DNA of 20,665 nt from a virus: the IMG/VR virus record IMGVR_UViG_3300047553_000097, positions 1 through 20,665 of that record. One strand, 5' to 3'. Both the position numbers and the translations under genes were made by a program. Positions 14,008-18,376 of the stretch are shown here, piece after piece. The number at the start of each line of letters is the position of its first letter. Within the stretch, counting starts at the first letter, position 1. The notes under the pieces are model-generated. The model worked only from the letters and a program-made list of their open reading frames with translations, searched no databases and had not been told where the DNA came from.

Positions 14008-14590
14008 ACAACTAAAGCAACTACATATTGGCCCTGAGTGGCTAGATGGGTTAAATGCTACTTTTGAGAAGTTTGACATCTCAACACCACTTCGTATGGC
14101 GGCTTTTATTGGTCAATGCGGGCATGAAAGCGGTAACTTTAAGATGCTGACCGAAAACTTAAATTATCGTGCTGAGGCTTTACAGAAACTGTGGCCTAAA
14201 CGCTTTGATGCTGCCAAGGCTCAGGCGTGTGCAAGAAACCCAAAGATGATCGCTACAGTCGTTTATAGCAATCGTATGGGCAACAGGGATGAGGCTTCTG
14301 GGGACGCTTGGCGTTTTATTGGCAGAGGCTGTATCCAGCTAACTGGCTCTAGCAATTATTACCATGCAGGGCAAGCTCTTGGTGTGGACTTCATTATGAA
14401 CCCTGAGTTAGTCGCTACACCAATGTATGCCGCACTAACCGCAGGGTGGTTCTGGAATACGCATAAGCTAAACCAATACGCTGACTCCAGAGATTACAAG
14501 ACTATGTGCAAAAAAATTAACGGGGGCTTTATCGGTCTTGCAGATCGAGAAAAGCATATAAATCACGCACTAGCAGTTCTTACTGCTTAA
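13994..14590 (+). CDS. Endolysin, glycoside hydrolase family 19 (chitinase-like)
   Basis: 198 residues. GH19 signature: FIGQCGHESGNFKMLTENLN, with E45 as the general acid and E54 as the second carboxylate, then KIATVVYSNRMGN-like (YSNRMGNRDEASGDAWRFIG), GRGCIQLTGSSNYY, and a C-terminal FWNTHKLN...KKINGG. Phage GH19 enzymes cleave the glycan strand of peptidoglycan. No signal peptide or SAR segment is seen, so release into the periplasm should need a holin. ATG at 13994 follows AGGAA (13981-13985). Its TAA shares bases with the TAA of the convergent MazG-like gene. Confidence 0.92.
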   Translation: MINAEQLKQLHIGPEWLDGLNATFEKFDISTPLRMAAFIGQCGHESGNFKMLTENLNYRAEALQKLWPKRFDAAKAQACARNPKMIATVVYSNRMGNRDEASGDAWRFIGRGCIQLTGSSNYYHAGQALGVDFIMNPELVATPMYAALTAGWFWNTHKLNQYADSRDYKTMCKKINGGFIGLADREKHINHALAVLTA

Positions 14591-14889
14591 TCTTTCACAA
14601 AAACTCCGCTTGGAAGTAGAGTTCCTGTGCGACTTTTTATGGTGTCATAGGCTGATTCCATGCAACTGACTAAATCAATGTCTTGCAAGGCACAGTAGTT
14701 GACCATACAAACCATAACGTCACCAACTCCATCGATTATTCCATCTTTGTCTTTCTTGATGGTTGCATCTGCTAGTTCACCTAACTCTGACATAGCTTTG
14801 AGAAGCTGAGTTTCTGGTGTGCTGTTGGGGATGATGCGTCTTTGCTCTGACCAACCAATAATCTTCATTTCTACTTGAGCATATGACAT
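14587..14889 (-). CDS. MazG-like nucleotide pyrophosphohydrolase
   Basis: 100 residues from ATG 14889. A longer frame extends to 14970, but GGAGG about 9 nt before ATG 14889 and the TAATG overlap with the upstream gene fix this start. The core MSELGELADATIKKDKDGII then DGVGDVMVCMVNY matches the MazG-type alpha-helical metal site (E35xxE38 ... D53xxxD57). Such enzymes hydrolyse NTPs or dNTPs to NMP plus PPi, and phage versions are thought to alter nucleotide or ppGpp levels; the substrate here is not known. It ends the leftward operon. Confidence 0.78.
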   Translation of the reverse strand: MSYAQVEMKIIGWSEQRRIIPNSTPETQLLKAMSELGELADATIKKDKDGIIDGVGDVMVCMVNYCALQDIDLVSCMESAYDTIKSRTGTLLPSGVFVKD

Positions 14890-15080
14890 TACTTTTTTCC
14901 TCCATCTATTCTGTTTTGTTTTAGGTGAATTCCTGTGATTCGCTTTAACCAACAGGACTGGCATATCCATTTGTGACCATTTTCAATCCCGCCTTCTGGT
15001 GGTTTATCTGTATCGCATGTATTACAGAATTTGAACTTATGGGTTGAGAAAGTCGAACCCATATCTATTGATGGCATCAT
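14889..15080 (-). CDS. Small zinc-finger-like protein
   Basis: 63 residues. Two CxxC pairs, C19-N-T-C22 and C40-Q-S-C43, with GHKWICQSCW between, look like a zinc knuckle; the rest is a short N-terminal arm and a basic C-terminal tail (LKQNRIDGGKK). It could bind nucleic acid or protein. The start is the first of two tandem ATG codons (15080, 15077), with GGAG upstream; it overlaps the previous gene by 4 nt. The TAA stop overlaps the MazG-like ATG. Confidence 0.6.
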   Translation of the reverse strand: MMPSIDMGSTFSTHKFKFCNTCDTDKPPEGGIENGHKWICQSCWLKRITGIHLKQNRIDGGKK

Positions 15081-15325
15081 GCCTCCATCTCCTTAATAGT
15101 TGTTTGTAGGGCTTCTAATGAGGATGCCAAAATAGAGTACGAACCAATTGGCGTGTCTGGATACCACTGCAACACCCAAACACTGTCCTCAGCAATGGCT
15201 TTTTTTAGTTCTTCAGGCGAAACAAAGTCATCACAGTCGTAATGCTCCTCAATTGTTTCGTACACATCACGATGTGAGTTATGAGTTAAGTACAAACCGC
15301 ATTTATGCTTTGGTAGCCAGTTCAT
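15077..15325 (-). CDS. Hypothetical phage protein
   Basis: 82 residues: MNWLPKHKCGLYLTHNSHRD, then YETIEEHYDCDDFVSPEELK, a Trp-rich middle (VWVLQWYPDTPIGSY) and a C-terminal helix (LEALQTTIKEMEA). It has the acidic, mixed alpha/beta character of small phage proteins with no known enzyme motif. I do not recognise it. ATG at 15325 overlaps the previous TGA (ATGA); GGGGGA lies about 4 nt upstream. It belongs to a run of six genes linked by 4-nt overlaps. Confidence 0.65.
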   Translation of the reverse strand: MNWLPKHKCGLYLTHNSHRDVYETIEEHYDCDDFVSPEELKKAIAEDSVWVLQWYPDTPIGSYSILASSLEALQTTIKEMEA

Positions 15326-15780
15326 GCTTCCCCCTTAATGCCGTGTGCGGCTTCGATTTCATATGCGTAATCCATCAGGCATTGATGCTCTGTTTTGTGT
15401 TCGACATCCGCATCGCACGTTGCTCTTGCCCAGCACATCAACTTCTGCTCATCCGTCAGCGGCTTGCGCTTATGTGGCTCCGCCACGGGTGGTGGGGTGG
15501 TGTAGCCAGCATAAAGTGGCGTTCTACCTTCTGGCACTTCTTCGCCGTATCCGTTGAAAATATAGATGTTGTTGATTCCAAGGTCGGCGTGACCAATCAA
15601 CTCCAATCGCTTTCCTGCCACAGGCTCATCCTTTGCTTCTAGTGCGGCTTTAATGGCGGTGATGGCTTCTTCAATCTCAGGCAACCATGCTTTTTCTTTT
15701 GGCAAGTAGTAACCATCAACCAAACTGTTTGCCACTTCCAACGCCTCCAATGCTAATTTGAGTGCTTCAGTCTGTGTCAT
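15322..15780 (-). CDS. Conserved phage protein with N-terminal helical repeat
   Basis: 152 residues. The N-terminal part (MTQTEALKLALEALEVANSL ... EEAITAIKAALEAK) is a helical motif frequent in phages of proteobacteria; the middle has a Pro-rich tail-like stretch (PLYAGYTTPPPVAEPHKR), followed by KPLTDEQKLMCWARATC and a C-terminal AYEIEAAHGIKGEA. These pieces recur as cut-and-paste modules in phage hypothetical proteins. The function is unknown. ATG overlaps the glutaredoxin stop (ATGA) and its own TGA overlaps the next gene. Confidence 0.65.
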   Translation of the reverse strand: MTQTEALKLALEALEVANSLVDGYYLPKEKAWLPEIEEAITAIKAALEAKDEPVAGKRLELIGHADLGINNIYIFNGYGEEVPEGRTPLYAGYTTPPPVAEPHKRKPLTDEQKLMCWARATCDADVEHKTEHQCLMDYAYEIEAAHGIKGEA

Positions 15781-16013
15781 GTCATTCCTAACTTCTTTAA
15801 AGCAGCCTGTAACCCTGCCAAACCACCTACTCTTTGGTCACCAATGAATATCTGTGGCATCTGTCTAGCTTCTGGATAGTTCGCAACAAAGTTAGCAAAC
15901 CTGTCACCAGTCTCAATGTCTATCTCTTTGTATTCAAGATTCAAAGTCTTGAGTAGATTCTTAGCTGTCACGCAATTGGGGCAGCCAGATTTTGTGTAGA
16001 TAGTAATGTTCAT
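15777..16013 (-). CDS. Glutaredoxin
   Basis: 78 residues, the normal size for a single-domain glutaredoxin. Active site C11-P-N-C14 after TIYTKSG, the cis-Pro motif MPQIFIGD (P53), and GG at 63-64 are all present, so the fold and both catalytic cysteines look intact. It should use glutathione to reduce disulfides, such as those of a ribonucleotide reductase; no reductase gene is in the window. It overlaps its neighbours by 4 nt on each side. Confidence 0.92.
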   Translation of the reverse strand: MNITIYTKSGCPNCVTAKNLLKTLNLEYKEIDIETGDRFANFVANYPEARQMPQIFIGDQRVGGLAGLQAALKKLGMT

Positions 16014-16294
16014 GCTTTTGCCCTCGCTCGGATGGCGGCTTCAATTTCAATGCTTCCGCCAAACATGGCAACAATGTCAATACATGCCTCACGCTCAAGT
16101 GCCATTGCTACATCAACTACTTTCTCAGCCGCTTTCATTGCGGCATCAGTTAATAGTTCACGCTCATGCTGTGCTACTAGTTTGGCAAAAGCTTCAAGCC
16201 CGTATTCATCGCACACAAATGTGTGACGACCCCGATTGTCTATAGCTATATCGCAGACCTGTTTAGCCATCTCAATGATTTCCTCCTGTGTCAT
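16010..16294 (-). CDS. Conserved phage protein, helical
   Basis: 94 residues: MTQEEIIEMAKQVCDIAIDN, then DEYGLEAFAKLVAQHERELL, a long helix (AAMKAAEKVVDVAMALEREA), and AAIRARAKA at the end. This layout (EEIIxMAxxAG, LExFAxLVAxxER.., REACxxxxE, AAIRARG) is a very common phage family whose function is not known, recognised from recall. ATG overlaps the upstream stop and its TGA overlaps the glutaredoxin start by 4 nt. Confidence 0.72.
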   Translation of the reverse strand: MTQEEIIEMAKQVCDIAIDNRGRHTFVCDEYGLEAFAKLVAQHERELLTDAAMKAAEKVVDVAMALEREACIDIVAMFGGSIEIEAAIRARAKA

Positions 16295-16467
16295 TTGACT
16301 CTCCTGAACTCTTGTCTTTCAGGAGGAGGAGGCGTCATTCTCTCACTAGGAGGAGTCCATCCATGCTTTCTCCAAAGAGCCTGTACGTCAGAACCTGATT
16401 CCCATTTAAAGTCTTTCAAAGGAACAGATGGATAGCTGATCTTTGAATATGGTGGTTTTTCAATCAT
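16291..16467 (-). CDS. Small phage protein with WRKHGWTPPSE motif
   Basis: 58 residues from ATG 16467. A GTG at 16476 would add three residues, but GGGAG touches that GTG directly, whereas it lies 8 nt from ATG 16467, which also forms an ATGA overlap with the previous stop. The product is MIEKPPYSKISYPSVPLKDF ... DVQALWRKHGWTPPSERM with a Pro-rich, basic end. The short WRKHGWTPPSE segment is one I remember from small phage proteins. The function is unknown. Confidence 0.6.
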   Translation of the reverse strand: MIEKPPYSKISYPSVPLKDFKWESGSDVQALWRKHGWTPPSERMTPPPPERQEFRRVK

Positions 16468-16778
16468 GCTGTCCACTCCCTTTCTGAACGACCTGAATCT
16501 GATTTGACTGTCTTACCAGTTAACTTGATAAGCCTAATCTTCTGCATTTCATTTAAGCGCCTGGCAACCTGATTTGAGTCTAGGTTTGTCATGGCTGAGA
16601 TTCCATCTTTACCGAGTGGCCCATAAGTCTGTAGGCACTCTAAGATTATTTGGAAGTGGTGGGAAACAACAGGCTTGATTGCTTCTGCTGCCTCATGTGA
16701 TGTCACAGGGTCTGTTTTCCTAACTCTAGGAAACTCAGGCATTGGGAACAATCTTTCAAAAGCACTTTTAATATCCAT
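16464..16778 (-). CDS. Winged-helix DNA-binding protein
   Basis: 104 residues. Residues 20-35 (RKTDPVTSHEAAEAI) lead a winged-helix domain: HFQIILECLQTYGPLGKDGI, SAMTNLDSNQVARRLNEMQK (recognition helix region) and a wing IRLIKLTGKTVKSDSGRSER. This arrangement is common in phage proteins of unknown target. The start ATG at 16778 follows AGGAGTTAA (16789-16781). It is the first gene after the HNH/RNA cassette and starts a run of ATGA-linked genes, so it may regulate this operon, but no operator has been shown. Confidence 0.7.
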   Translation of the reverse strand: MDIKSAFERLFPMPEFPRVRKTDPVTSHEAAEAIKPVVSHHFQIILECLQTYGPLGKDGISAMTNLDSNQVARRLNEMQKIRLIKLTGKTVKSDSGRSEREWTA

Positions 16779-16796
16779 TATTAACTCCTATTTATT

Positions 16797-16965
16797 GAAC
16801 TGGTGAGAGCTACTCACGTTCGTCCGGCAGAATTGCCCGTTTTCGCCCTCGTATTGGTGAAGCCTACTCGCTACGTCTGTGATAGCTAAACGGGAGGGAC
16901 TTGCACCCCTTACTTTGTCCTCGCACAGCATCCGCTTTTGGCTTCGTAAACTTAGAATGGCACAA
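16797..16965 (-). ncRNA. Structured non-coding stretch with pseudoknot potential, downstream of HNH gene
   Basis: No gene fills 16779-16965, and base composition is clearly more G/C-rich than its surroundings. Pairings (forward coordinates): 16859-16864 with 16940-16945 (6 bp, GAAGCC/GGCTTC); inside that 16877-16881 with 16924-16928 (5 bp); inside that 16895-16898 with 16907-16910 (4-bp stem, 8-nt loop). Crossing them, 16836-16842 pairs with 16888-16894 (7 bp, CCCGTTT/AAACGGG), which makes a pseudoknot. A 5-bp hairpin GTGAG/CTCAC sits at 16803-16817. Transcription would be leftward, from the HNH gene side. The RNA's identity is unknown: I find no canonical group I core (GACTA/TAGTC) or tRNA acceptor pairing. 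One open frame runs across it on the minus strand but looks accidental. Confidence 0.45.
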
Positions 16966-17439
16966 TTACTCATAAATTGGTTTATTTTCTCTGTGCCATA
17001 AATGATGACATTTAATGCAAAGCCATCTAACCTCCAAAGGTTTTGTATAGTCATCGTGATGCGCCTGAACTAATATTGTTGATTCGCAAATTGAGCATGA
17101 ATCGGCTACTTTAAGTTTTCCATCTCTTATGTAATTTCGTGTTATTACATGAGCTGCATACTTTAATGGATACCTTTTTCTGTACGATTCGGTTGCTTTT
17201 TTCCTTGAAATCTTTCCTTGCTCAGTTTTCTGGTAATCGGCTCTTGCTTCTACTCTGTGAGGAAGATTTGCTCTTTTTTTATCATATTGTCTGGCTTTTT
17301 CAATGTTCGCATTTCTATGTTTTTTTACTCTATCTTTAACGCATTCAGAGCATTTATTTAAATGCCCATCAGCCATCATTGGATGTTTATAAAATTCACA
17401 TAAAGGCTTTTCTTGGTTGCATTCACGACATACCTTCAT
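16966..17439 (-). CDS. HNH homing endonuclease with N-terminal zinc finger
   Basis: 157 residues. An N-terminal CxxC...CxxC finger (C4, C7, C30, C33: KVCRECNQEKPLCEFYKHP) resembles that of the HNH protein at 2687-3223. A basic linker (VKKHRNANIEKARQYDKKR) leads to the nuclease core: C115-S-I-C118, AHHDDYTKPLEVRWLCIKCH (H127-H128, C141xxC144, H145) and H149. The HHDDY...P..V.WLC..CH..WH pattern is typical of phage HNH homing proteins. ATG at 17439 follows GGAGA at about -7. It interrupts the packed leftward operon and is followed by the structured non-coding stretch, so it is probably mobile. Confidence 0.9.
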   Translation of the reverse strand: MKVCRECNQEKPLCEFYKHPMMADGHLNKCSECVKDRVKKHRNANIEKARQYDKKRANLPHRVEARADYQKTEQGKISRKKATESYRKRYPLKYAAHVITRNYIRDGKLKVADSCSICESTILVQAHHDDYTKPLEVRWLCIKCHHLWHRENKPIYE

Positions 17440-17454
17440 AACTTCTCCTTTGGA

Positions 17455-17477
17455 ATGGTATGTAGCTAATATACCAT
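17455..17477. repeat. 7-bp inverted repeat upstream of the HNH gene
   Basis: ATGGTAT (17455-17461) and ATACCAT (17471-17477) are perfect complements around a 9-nt centre (GTAGCTAAT) which itself contains TAGCTA. The repeat lies in the 39-nt gap between the upstream stop (TAG at 17481-17479) and the HNH start, just before its ribosome site. It could be the 5' stem of the inserted cassette, a protein binding site or a control hairpin; there is no T-run to suggest a terminator. Confidence 0.5.
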
Positions 17478-17478
17478 A

Positions 17479-17718
17479 CTAAAATGGCATATCGTCTGAA
17501 TCGAAGCCAGTCGCTTTAGACCGCTCAGAATGCTTTGCCATAGGTTCTTTAGGTGATACTGCCAAACCCATGAATTTACCGCTCTTACCTTCTTTTACCC
17601 ATGCTGATAGCCAATAGTCTTTGCCATCAACAGTAATATTCCCTTTGTATGTTGGCGACCTATCATTTTCAATTTTGTCATTTTTGAAAAGTACACCACT
17701 GTTATCACGTTTTTCCAT
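17479..17718 (-). CDS. Small OB-like ssDNA-binding protein candidate
   Basis: 79 residues. Beta-rich core: SGVLFKNDKIENDRSPTYKG, NITVDGKDYWLSAWVKEGKS and KFMGLAVSPKEPM, then an acidic tail ending FDSDDMPF. The tail resembles the DDxPF tip that SSB proteins use to recruit partners. The neighbour is a single-strand annealing protein, which commonly pairs with an SSB in phages. The domain is short for a full SSB (usually about 110 residues for the OB fold), so it may be a reduced OB protein. AAGGAAA precedes ATG 17718. The TAG stop abuts the HNH cassette. Confidence 0.55.
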   Translation of the reverse strand: MEKRDNSGVLFKNDKIENDRSPTYKGNITVDGKDYWLSAWVKEGKSGKFMGLAVSPKEPMAKHSERSKATGFDSDDMPF

Positions 17719-17719
17719 A

Positions 17720-18376
17720 TTAAATTTCCTTTGCCTTTTTCAAAGCTGTACGCACTTTACTGGGAAGCAAAGTCCACAAGGCCACCTTTTGATCGGCCTC
17801 TAGGTTCTCTCCTTCTAACTTAACCCAAGCTGCCTTGGGTTCTTCACCATCGCAAAGAGCAATCAATTCCATTGCTAACTCTCTGAGATAATTCTGCTCA
17901 TCTTTTGGGAGGCTATCCATAGCACCCTGAGTAGGTGTAATAACGACTGTTTTACCCTCTTCAGGCAAGTCTTCACCGCTATACAAGTACATACCCAAGC
18001 CATGAAGGGCTAGAGCCTTTGTCATACAGCGCATGATGGCTGTGTTGACAGCAAAAGCATCAGGTTTAGGGATTGCTTTGTTGCGGTAGTCCATCACAGG
18101 CAATTGGCAAGTCATTGGTTTGCCAAACATTGTGACTGTGACGAACACCATTGCTGTGCCATTGATGTCCATAAAGCACTTGCCATCGAACATCTCTACC
18201 CTGTAAGTAGCATTAGCATCTGCTTTGAGAGCTTCTGCCCATGCCCAAGCCCACGATAGGTAGGATAAGCCGTTCTTTTTCTCAACATGGTCGTTGACAT
18301 TCTTTGCCAACAACTTTGCAATGAGTTCTTTTCTGTCAACCAATAAGCCTGGTTGGTTTGGGTCTTGTGTAAACAT
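17720..18376 (-). CDS. Single-strand annealing protein (Sak/DUF1071 family)
   Basis: 218 residues. DUF1071-type features: YLSWAWAWAEALKADANATY (residues 39-58), GTAMVFVTVTMFGKPMTCQL, then PVMDYRNKAIPKPDAFAVNT and IMRCMTKALALHGLGMYLYS, GEDLPEE. The C-terminal part (ALIALCDGEEPKAAW, LPSKVRTALKKAKEI) is helical and more variable, as is usual. Such proteins anneal complementary single strands during recombination-dependent replication. ATG 18376 follows AGGAGTTAA (18386-18378), whose TAA is the stop of the upstream gene. The OB-like protein gene follows at once. Confidence 0.85.
   Translation of the reverse strand: MFTQDPNQPGLLVDRKELIAKLLAKNVNDHVEKKNGLSYLSWAWAWAEALKADANATYRVEMFDGKCFMDINGTAMVFVTVTMFGKPMTCQLPVMDYRNKAIPKPDAFAVNTAIMRCMTKALALHGLGMYLYSGEDLPEEGKTVVITPTQGAMDSLPKDEQNYLRELAMELIALCDGEEPKAAWVKLEGENLEADQKVALWTLLPSKVRTALKKAKEI

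Follow-up and report, generated by a model that had tools for sequence, protein, structure and literature searches.

What occupies the non-coding gap between an HNH gene and a 104-aa gene of this virus, and is it the single pseudoknotted fold at 16801-16945 that a preliminary description proposed? The window, meaning the whole stretch of DNA analysed, is a virus record of 20,665 bases in which minus-strand genes span 14587-18376; the gap, bounded by the HNH gene stop (16966) and the 104-aa gene start (16778), therefore reads on the minus strand, an orientation that the preliminary description had given for neither the genes nor the functional unit. The upstream gene (16966-17439, minus strand, 157 aa) is HNH/endonuclease VII-like (phrog_2340, 9.4e-47), and the downstream 104-aa gene (16464-16778, minus strand) gives a weak winged-helix-like match and belongs to phrog_1123 (function unknown). 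The HNH gene is placed between the RNA unit and a gene for a small ssDNA-binding protein of 79 aa with a DDMPF tail (17479-17718, minus strand; phrog_18154, 7.3e-14), itself preceded by a gene for a Sak-type single-strand annealing protein (17720-18376, minus strand; PF06378, 8.8e-41). Within 16940-17480 a second copy of the 3' end of the small ssDNA-binding gene (GCCATTCTAAG) immediately follows the HNH gene, and a related locus, L037, has no HNH gene at the matching position; judged from these sequences, the HNH gene appears to be an insertion into the 3' end of the ssDNA-binding gene. Promoter-like and terminator-like sites were absent from the sense strand around the window copy, and an intrinsic terminator was ruled out, as the search for a GC stem followed by a T run within 16700-17000 gave no minus-strand site and a single one on the plus strand.

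Two tandem units and their fold

The gap holds two tandem structured units on the minus strand, type B (16859-16945) and type A (16805-16850), and the idea of one fold across 16801-16945 was accordingly abandoned. The type B unit, which has 144 distinct relatives with covariation in P1 and P2, consists of a basal helix (P1), a GAAA/GAGUA loop, a GC(GGA)UGC/GCA-GC core helix and a second helix (P2) with a variable insert. Along the minus strand, the P1 5' strand GAAGCC (16940-16945) is followed by the 5' core A-AAAGCGGATGC (16928-16939), the variable insert closed by P2 (TGTG/CACA; 16878-16927), the 3' core GACGTAGCGAGTA (16865-16877) and the P1 3' strand GGCTTC (16859-16864), which leads into ACC (16856-16858), a trinucleotide found immediately 3' of P1 in 83 of the 144 type B copies. 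The consensus can be written P1 - (G/A)AAAGC-GGA-UGC - P2[variable insert] - GAC-GCA-GC-GAGUA - P1' - ACC. In alignment A1 (53 type B sequences), 11 columns of the 5' core and 12 of the 13 columns of the 3' core are invariant; the resulting core of about 23 invariant positions is partly so by construction, since the pattern scans selected for it. The UGC/GCA core pairs hardly vary in type B and are retained in variants that lack the GAC bulge (L251, L296). We take the GAAA/GAGUA arrangement, recognised without a 3D model, to be a bulged-G (loop E, sarcin-ricin) motif. Our type B model, R1, matches the window at 16853-16948 with 57.1 bits, this copy being part of the R1 training alignment.

The type B fold is borne out by covariation, with a score in A1 of 0.468 vs 0.157 for shuffles, none of 500 shuffles scoring as high and slid controls reaching at most 0.120. 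All six P1 pairs and all five P2 pairs change on both sides in this alignment, although the number of pairs with a change on both sides does not exceed that of shuffles (318 of 500 as high). RNAalifold applied to A1 recovered P1, the GC/GC pairs and P2 unaided and did not choose the UGC/GCA pairs, and folding of single sequences placed all four inner P1 pairs in 87 of 103 representative copies. Folding energy, proposed beforehand as a check against shuffled sequence, gave a mean z of -1.35 for the whole element across these 103 copies, whereas the window copy was unremarkable (minus-strand z 0.12, plus-strand z 0.81), and the energy of this single copy was rejected as evidence. Wobble pairs favour folding of the sense strand: across the 144 type B copies, a restricted set of pairs, in which the search pattern left one core position as C or T, contains 69 G-T and 22 A-C, and the sum over P1.1-P1.4 and P2.1-P2.3, which the pattern does not constrain, is 46 G-T vs 20 A-C. 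When all pairs are counted, including the outer ends where helices stop, A-C (159) exceeds G-T (98). These counts tell the strand, not RNA from DNA.

All four pairings of the preliminary description are present in the sequence, and they fared differently among the relatives. Conservation in homologues had been named beforehand as the test, and it strongly confirmed two of the three nested helices, both of which covary: 16859-16864/16940-16945 (GAAGCC/GGCTTC) is P1, and 16877-16881/16924-16928 (CTGTG/CACAG) is P2 plus one core position. The third, 16895-16898/16907-16910, is a hairpin with a T-loop-like loop (16895-16910, minus strand) inside the variable insert, and is common only to a few near-identical inserts. 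The crossing helix of 7 bp (16836-16842/16888-16894), which would join the type B insert to the neighbouring type A unit, was refuted: its CCCGTTT side occurs in five relatives with the same or a similar insert (L027, L030, L036, L037 and L178), the AAACGGG side lies within 150 nt in none of them, and thus there is no pseudoknot. Such a match had already been conceded to be possible by chance, and a Watson-Crick helix of that length indeed arose in 80 of 300 dinucleotide shuffles of the 145-nt stretch; the crossing helix is, on this comparison of sequences, a chance pairing of the window copy.

The type A unit (16805-16850, minus strand) is smaller and comprises P1 (GAGGGC/GCTCTC), a GAAA..AGUA loop, ACG/CGU pairs, the hairpin GGCAATTCTGCC and a 3' bulge GGACGAA, followed by ACC. 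Across 17 aligned copies, the window copy included, its consensus is P1 - GAAAGCG - hairpin - GGACGAA - CGU.AGUA - P1' - ACC, and its covariation score is 0.364 vs 0.178 for shuffles (none of 500 as high), while the count of further pair types does not rise above shuffles (408 of 500 as high).

Distribution and gene setting

The first signs that both units recur in other phages came from scanning for a motif and from the sequence 3' of HNH homologues. A pattern scan of IMG/VR for type B returned at least 120 stretches, and at least 144 distinct type B copies are now at hand, mostly from IMG/VR contigs of environmental phages; a scan for the type A 3' motif returned 75 stretches, many of them chance coding matches by eye. 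In contrast, a stricter type B pattern matched four stretches in 84,980 GTDB species genomes, three in beta-proteobacteria (a class that we presume for two of them) and one in an Armatimonadetes MAG, which points to an element mainly of phages. In the order to which one carrier belongs, 399 genomes were searched with the model and 3 matched, one of these being that carrier itself and another, L321, resembling a chance match by eye. As an independent check, ten named phage records reached via protein or DNA similarity, and not via the motif, were searched whole with R1, which gave three carriers (MW202710.1, 4.8e-12; MW202462.1, 2.8e-12; MW202520.1, 1.5e-6), one borderline match (Burkholderia phage Magia, E 0.06) and six records with none. 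The three carriers are INPHARED phage records outside the training set; in MW202710.1 the element lies directly 3' of an annotated ssDNA-binding gene, and in MW202462.1 an ssDNA-binding gene is followed by an HNH gene and a small ORF, and then by the element.

Each virus record tested carries the element at one site. This held in 44 of 44 records, which were chosen as element carriers and many of which are fragments, with one model match in 34 and two close together in 10, ruling out a dispersed repeat within the genome. When the general frame was searched for loosely, 17 non-B units came up next to type B sites and 10 at other places, the latter being four instances of one coding artefact, five sites with type A only and one further locus (L238).

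A gene end or start lies in sense within 40-45 nt of 117 of the 144 type B copies and in antisense of 20. A sense stop (of an ORF of at least 60 aa) occurs no more than 40 nt upstream in 99 copies (median 6 nt), and a start with a ribosome-binding site no more than 45 nt downstream in 64 (median 18 nt). Among 101 upstream proteins scanned, 20 match phrog_7364, 20 phrog_18154, 4 phrog_112 (Gp2.5-like; PF10991) and 2 phrog_44, which would make about 26 of the 101 upstream genes ssDNA-binding if the phrog_7364 and phrog_18154 sets coincide entirely while the other two share nothing. HNH/endonuclease VII genes lie upstream too, with no single such family matching more than 6 of the 101, and L037 has both the A and the B unit and no HNH gene; the HNH neighbourhood mentioned in the preliminary description is thus incidental, and an HNH-associated RNA of the HEARO/omega RNA type was rejected on the same grounds. 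As 29 of 111 upstream proteins fall in one cluster, related contexts are over-counted here. Downstream proteins are diverse (75 proteins in 35 clusters, the largest of 31), and a riboswitch was rejected since no single downstream gene class emerges.

Within 90 loci of at least 7 kb, the commonest genes code for a Sak-type annealing protein (41), a primosomal-type protein (31), a small ssDNA-binding protein (29), the 104-aa protein (26) and a protein that we take to be MazG-like (25), names given by eye from similarity to annotated proteins. A phage-coded partner gene near all copies was sought and rejected, as the best neighbour occurs in only 41 of the 90 loci; a partner protein coded by the phage is therefore not evident, and a host protein is possible. 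Separately, 11 of the 111 upstream proteins are small and cysteine-rich, with a signal-peptide-like start and a CTTCCYGxNCxTNC end (L099, L112, L114, L121, L148, L157, L158 and others).

Exchangeable inserts and the frame around them

The inserts of the 144 copies fall into 19 clusters and 87 singletons, and 11 clusters of near-identical inserts (at least 85%) each span two or more unrelated flank contexts, the P1 stems differing in most of these clusters, which indicates a fixed scaffold with exchangeable hairpins. The insert of the window, for instance, is present in near-identical form in L027, L030, L036 and L037, and these five loci represent four flank groups. Trimmed inserts fold somewhat better than shuffles (mean z -0.91) and have no common fold. 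At the other extreme, MW202462.1 (L322) has a minimal form in which UGCC-GAAA-GGUGCA closes directly, the insert being reduced to a GAAA tetraloop and the GAC bulge missing, which identifies the scaffold and P1 as the constant part. In L188 (3976-4092) the insert of a type B unit is exceptionally long and has a tRNA T-arm-like hairpin (GTGAGTTCGAATCTCACCA) at its end.

The junction before homologues of the 104-aa gene allows different units to be compared at one position. A framed structure with differing interiors is present there in 62 of 64 loci, of which 55 were recognised by script (type B in 23, type A in 7, type D in 24 and a C/D-like unit in 1) and 7 are type D copies assigned by eye among the 9 loci that the script had called none, leaving 2 with nothing. 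Type D, marked by GAAAGCUGUGCAA..., contains GGACGA or a related sequence, and many of its copies have an altered GAAA/AGUA loop. This comparison leaves an outer stem and an ACC tail as the constant part, to which types A, B and C add the GAAA/AGUA loop. L024 has nothing more at this junction than a simple GGGGC-UACG-GCCCC hairpin, which agrees with a function that a stable stem can partly fulfil.

Further units were observed beside type B. Type C units, which have a P1-GAAAGC...GTGAGTA-P1'-ACC frame around a different interior, stand in tandem with type B in L045, L047, L061, L079 and L122. Another recurrent structured unit, ACACGCATG-NNNN-TTG ... CAG-NNNN-CAGYCGTGTTGG, has paired variable arms and is likewise found in tandem with type B units, as noticed in L077, L085, L135, L150, L045, L056, L061, L101 and L122, and tRNA genes adjoin it in some loci; a strict pattern gave 18 matches in 17 loci.

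Relation to known RNAs and probable role

Comparison with Rfam 15 at gathering level gave no match in the window, and 15 related loci yielded only three tRNAs, none at an element, in keeping with the preliminary view of a structured non-coding RNA of no recognised family. A sensitive scan of 14 loci added three sub-threshold matches, one of which (L050, RF02278) touches the end of an element on the opposite strand. In the sensitive scan of the window, only the group II intron domain model RF02003 (group-II-D1D4-4) covers the element, through weak sequence similarity around GGGUGCAAGUCCC; a group II intron fragment was rejected because the match reaches 15.9 bits vs a gathering score of 49 and the hairpin concerned, part of the variable insert, is missing from most relatives. 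Neither ARAGORN nor a tRNA model matched the window, and no model of a known self-cleaving ribozyme class matched the window or the related loci. The insert hairpin GGUGCAAGUCC, T-loop-like in form, presumably resembles hairpins of the Twister-sister and tRNA T-arm type, but unlike those it belongs to the exchangeable insert and not to the conserved core.

In the open-access literature searched, no description of the element was found. The nearest described thing is STAXI (RF01728), presented as a repeated pseudoknot in Enterobacteriales of unknown function, with tandem structures near genes for ssDNA-binding and other DNA-handling proteins and with its RNA or ssDNA nature left open (PMC2864571). 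Our element may resemble it in having tandem structured units near ssDNA-binding genes, with two model matches at the site in 10 of 44 records and about 26 of 101 upstream genes ssDNA-binding; however, the pseudoknot of STAXI is missing here, and the core is instead a bulged-G-type loop with an exchangeable hairpin. 'Burkholderiales-1', which the same paper treats as an ambiguous motif without an Rfam entry, may be a relative (PMC2864571). Taken together, it is strongly supported that the two units of the window are tandem members of an RNA family found mainly in phages, and this family is almost certainly real and new. We place it within a broad known kind, the structured intercistronic RNA motif of phages or plasmids, from which it stands out in that scaffold and hairpin evolve separately.

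How the element acts is less firmly established, and we put the new family and its mechanism, taken together, at somewhat short of an even chance. Fixed spacing to stop and start, sense orientation, the lack of a promoter-like or terminator-like site and the replaceable interior best support a cis role in early mRNA. The element would sit in a polycistronic early mRNA, between the stop of one gene, often an ssDNA-binding gene, and the ribosome-binding site of the next, and would fold once transcribed. Its rigid base of P1 and loop would keep exonucleases off the ssDNA-binding message at its 3' end and separate that message from the next gene, a protein of the host or the phage could dock at the fixed internal loop, and the apical hairpin would be a tolerated, exchangeable addition. 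REP-type and T4 UUCG intercistronic hairpins are stable stems right after a stop codon in polycistronic mRNA, and the plain stem of L024 is just such a hairpin at a matching junction; the element differs from these hairpins in its about 23 invariant internal-loop positions and its one site per record. A plain exonuclease barrier would need neither of these two features. Protecting the upstream message and keeping it apart from the next gene are our first choice, and docking at the invariant loop would be a natural addition; such a cis-acting intercistronic mechanism is a tentative reading, against which stand the modest share of ssDNA-binding genes upstream and the many altered type D loops.

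Several other roles were weighed against this cis-acting domain. The element may be a cis regulatory site for a specific protein. This could be an RNA-binding protein of the host, or the ssDNA-binding protein of the phage, which would then control its own operon in the manner of T4 gp32; the several families of ssDNA-binding proteins encoded upstream would fit such a site, and a bulged-G-type loop is a known protein docking geometry. We nonetheless regard it as rather unlikely, because ssDNA-binding proteins are recognised for only a minority of the upstream and downstream genes, the gene before many copies is an HNH gene or an unknown one, and the element comes after, not before, the putative regulator. 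The swappable hairpin could instead be the working part, as a decoy, a host-factor ligand or an anti-defence RNA acting in trans, with the scaffold as a stable mount processed from the early mRNA. Diverse inserts of which 11 clusters nonetheless span unrelated flanks, insert cores that fold better than shuffles on average, and a single site with rapid exchange, resembling accessory loci under diversifying selection, would all suit such an RNA. It is unlikely given that the insert is nearly absent in MW202462.1, that the window copy has no promoter-like or terminator-like site of its own, and that inserts lack extended complementarity to the remaining locus (8.89 vs 8.55 nt for 81 inserts), a comparison that also led us to reject antisense targets within the insert's own locus. 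A more specific version, in which each phage carries one fixed scaffold in its early operon and presents one hairpin from a large, horizontally passed pool, the hairpin being selected and specificity-giving (e.g., as a decoy or ligand for a host factor or defence protein) and the core providing mount and homology for swaps, seems to us improbable as a whole.

A new class of self-cleaving ribozyme, in which the conserved loop and the GGA/GAC bulges would make up a catalytic centre for cleaving the early mRNA between genes, would explain the many invariant internal-loop positions next to freely varying helices and the lack of a consistent gene association downstream, and the small size and the occurrence in phages are reminiscent of the way in which known small ribozymes were discovered. 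However, known ribozyme models do not match, the GAC bulge is missing in the type B variants L251, L296 and L322, and types A, B and D interchange at one junction with differing inner loops, so that P1 and the GAAA/AGUA loop are nearly all that they have in common, apparently not enough for catalysis; we consider a ribozyme quite improbable. The least favoured reading, which we hold to be very improbable, is a structure of single-stranded DNA for replication, recombination or mobility. It would accord with the recombination and replication genes nearby, with the tandem units and with inserts that move between contexts, and STAXI has been discussed likewise (PMC2864571). The bias towards sense relative to genes, the tight stop and start spacing and the wobble pairs argue against it. 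GNRA loops and the bulged-G-type loop, moreover, are RNA motifs.

Since scaffold and hairpin evolve separately, the function of this phage element is testable by simple swaps of either part. If the element proves to be a protein docking site or a ribozyme, it would add a class, and if the hairpins are specificity elements, they would represent a new kind of phage RNA locus.
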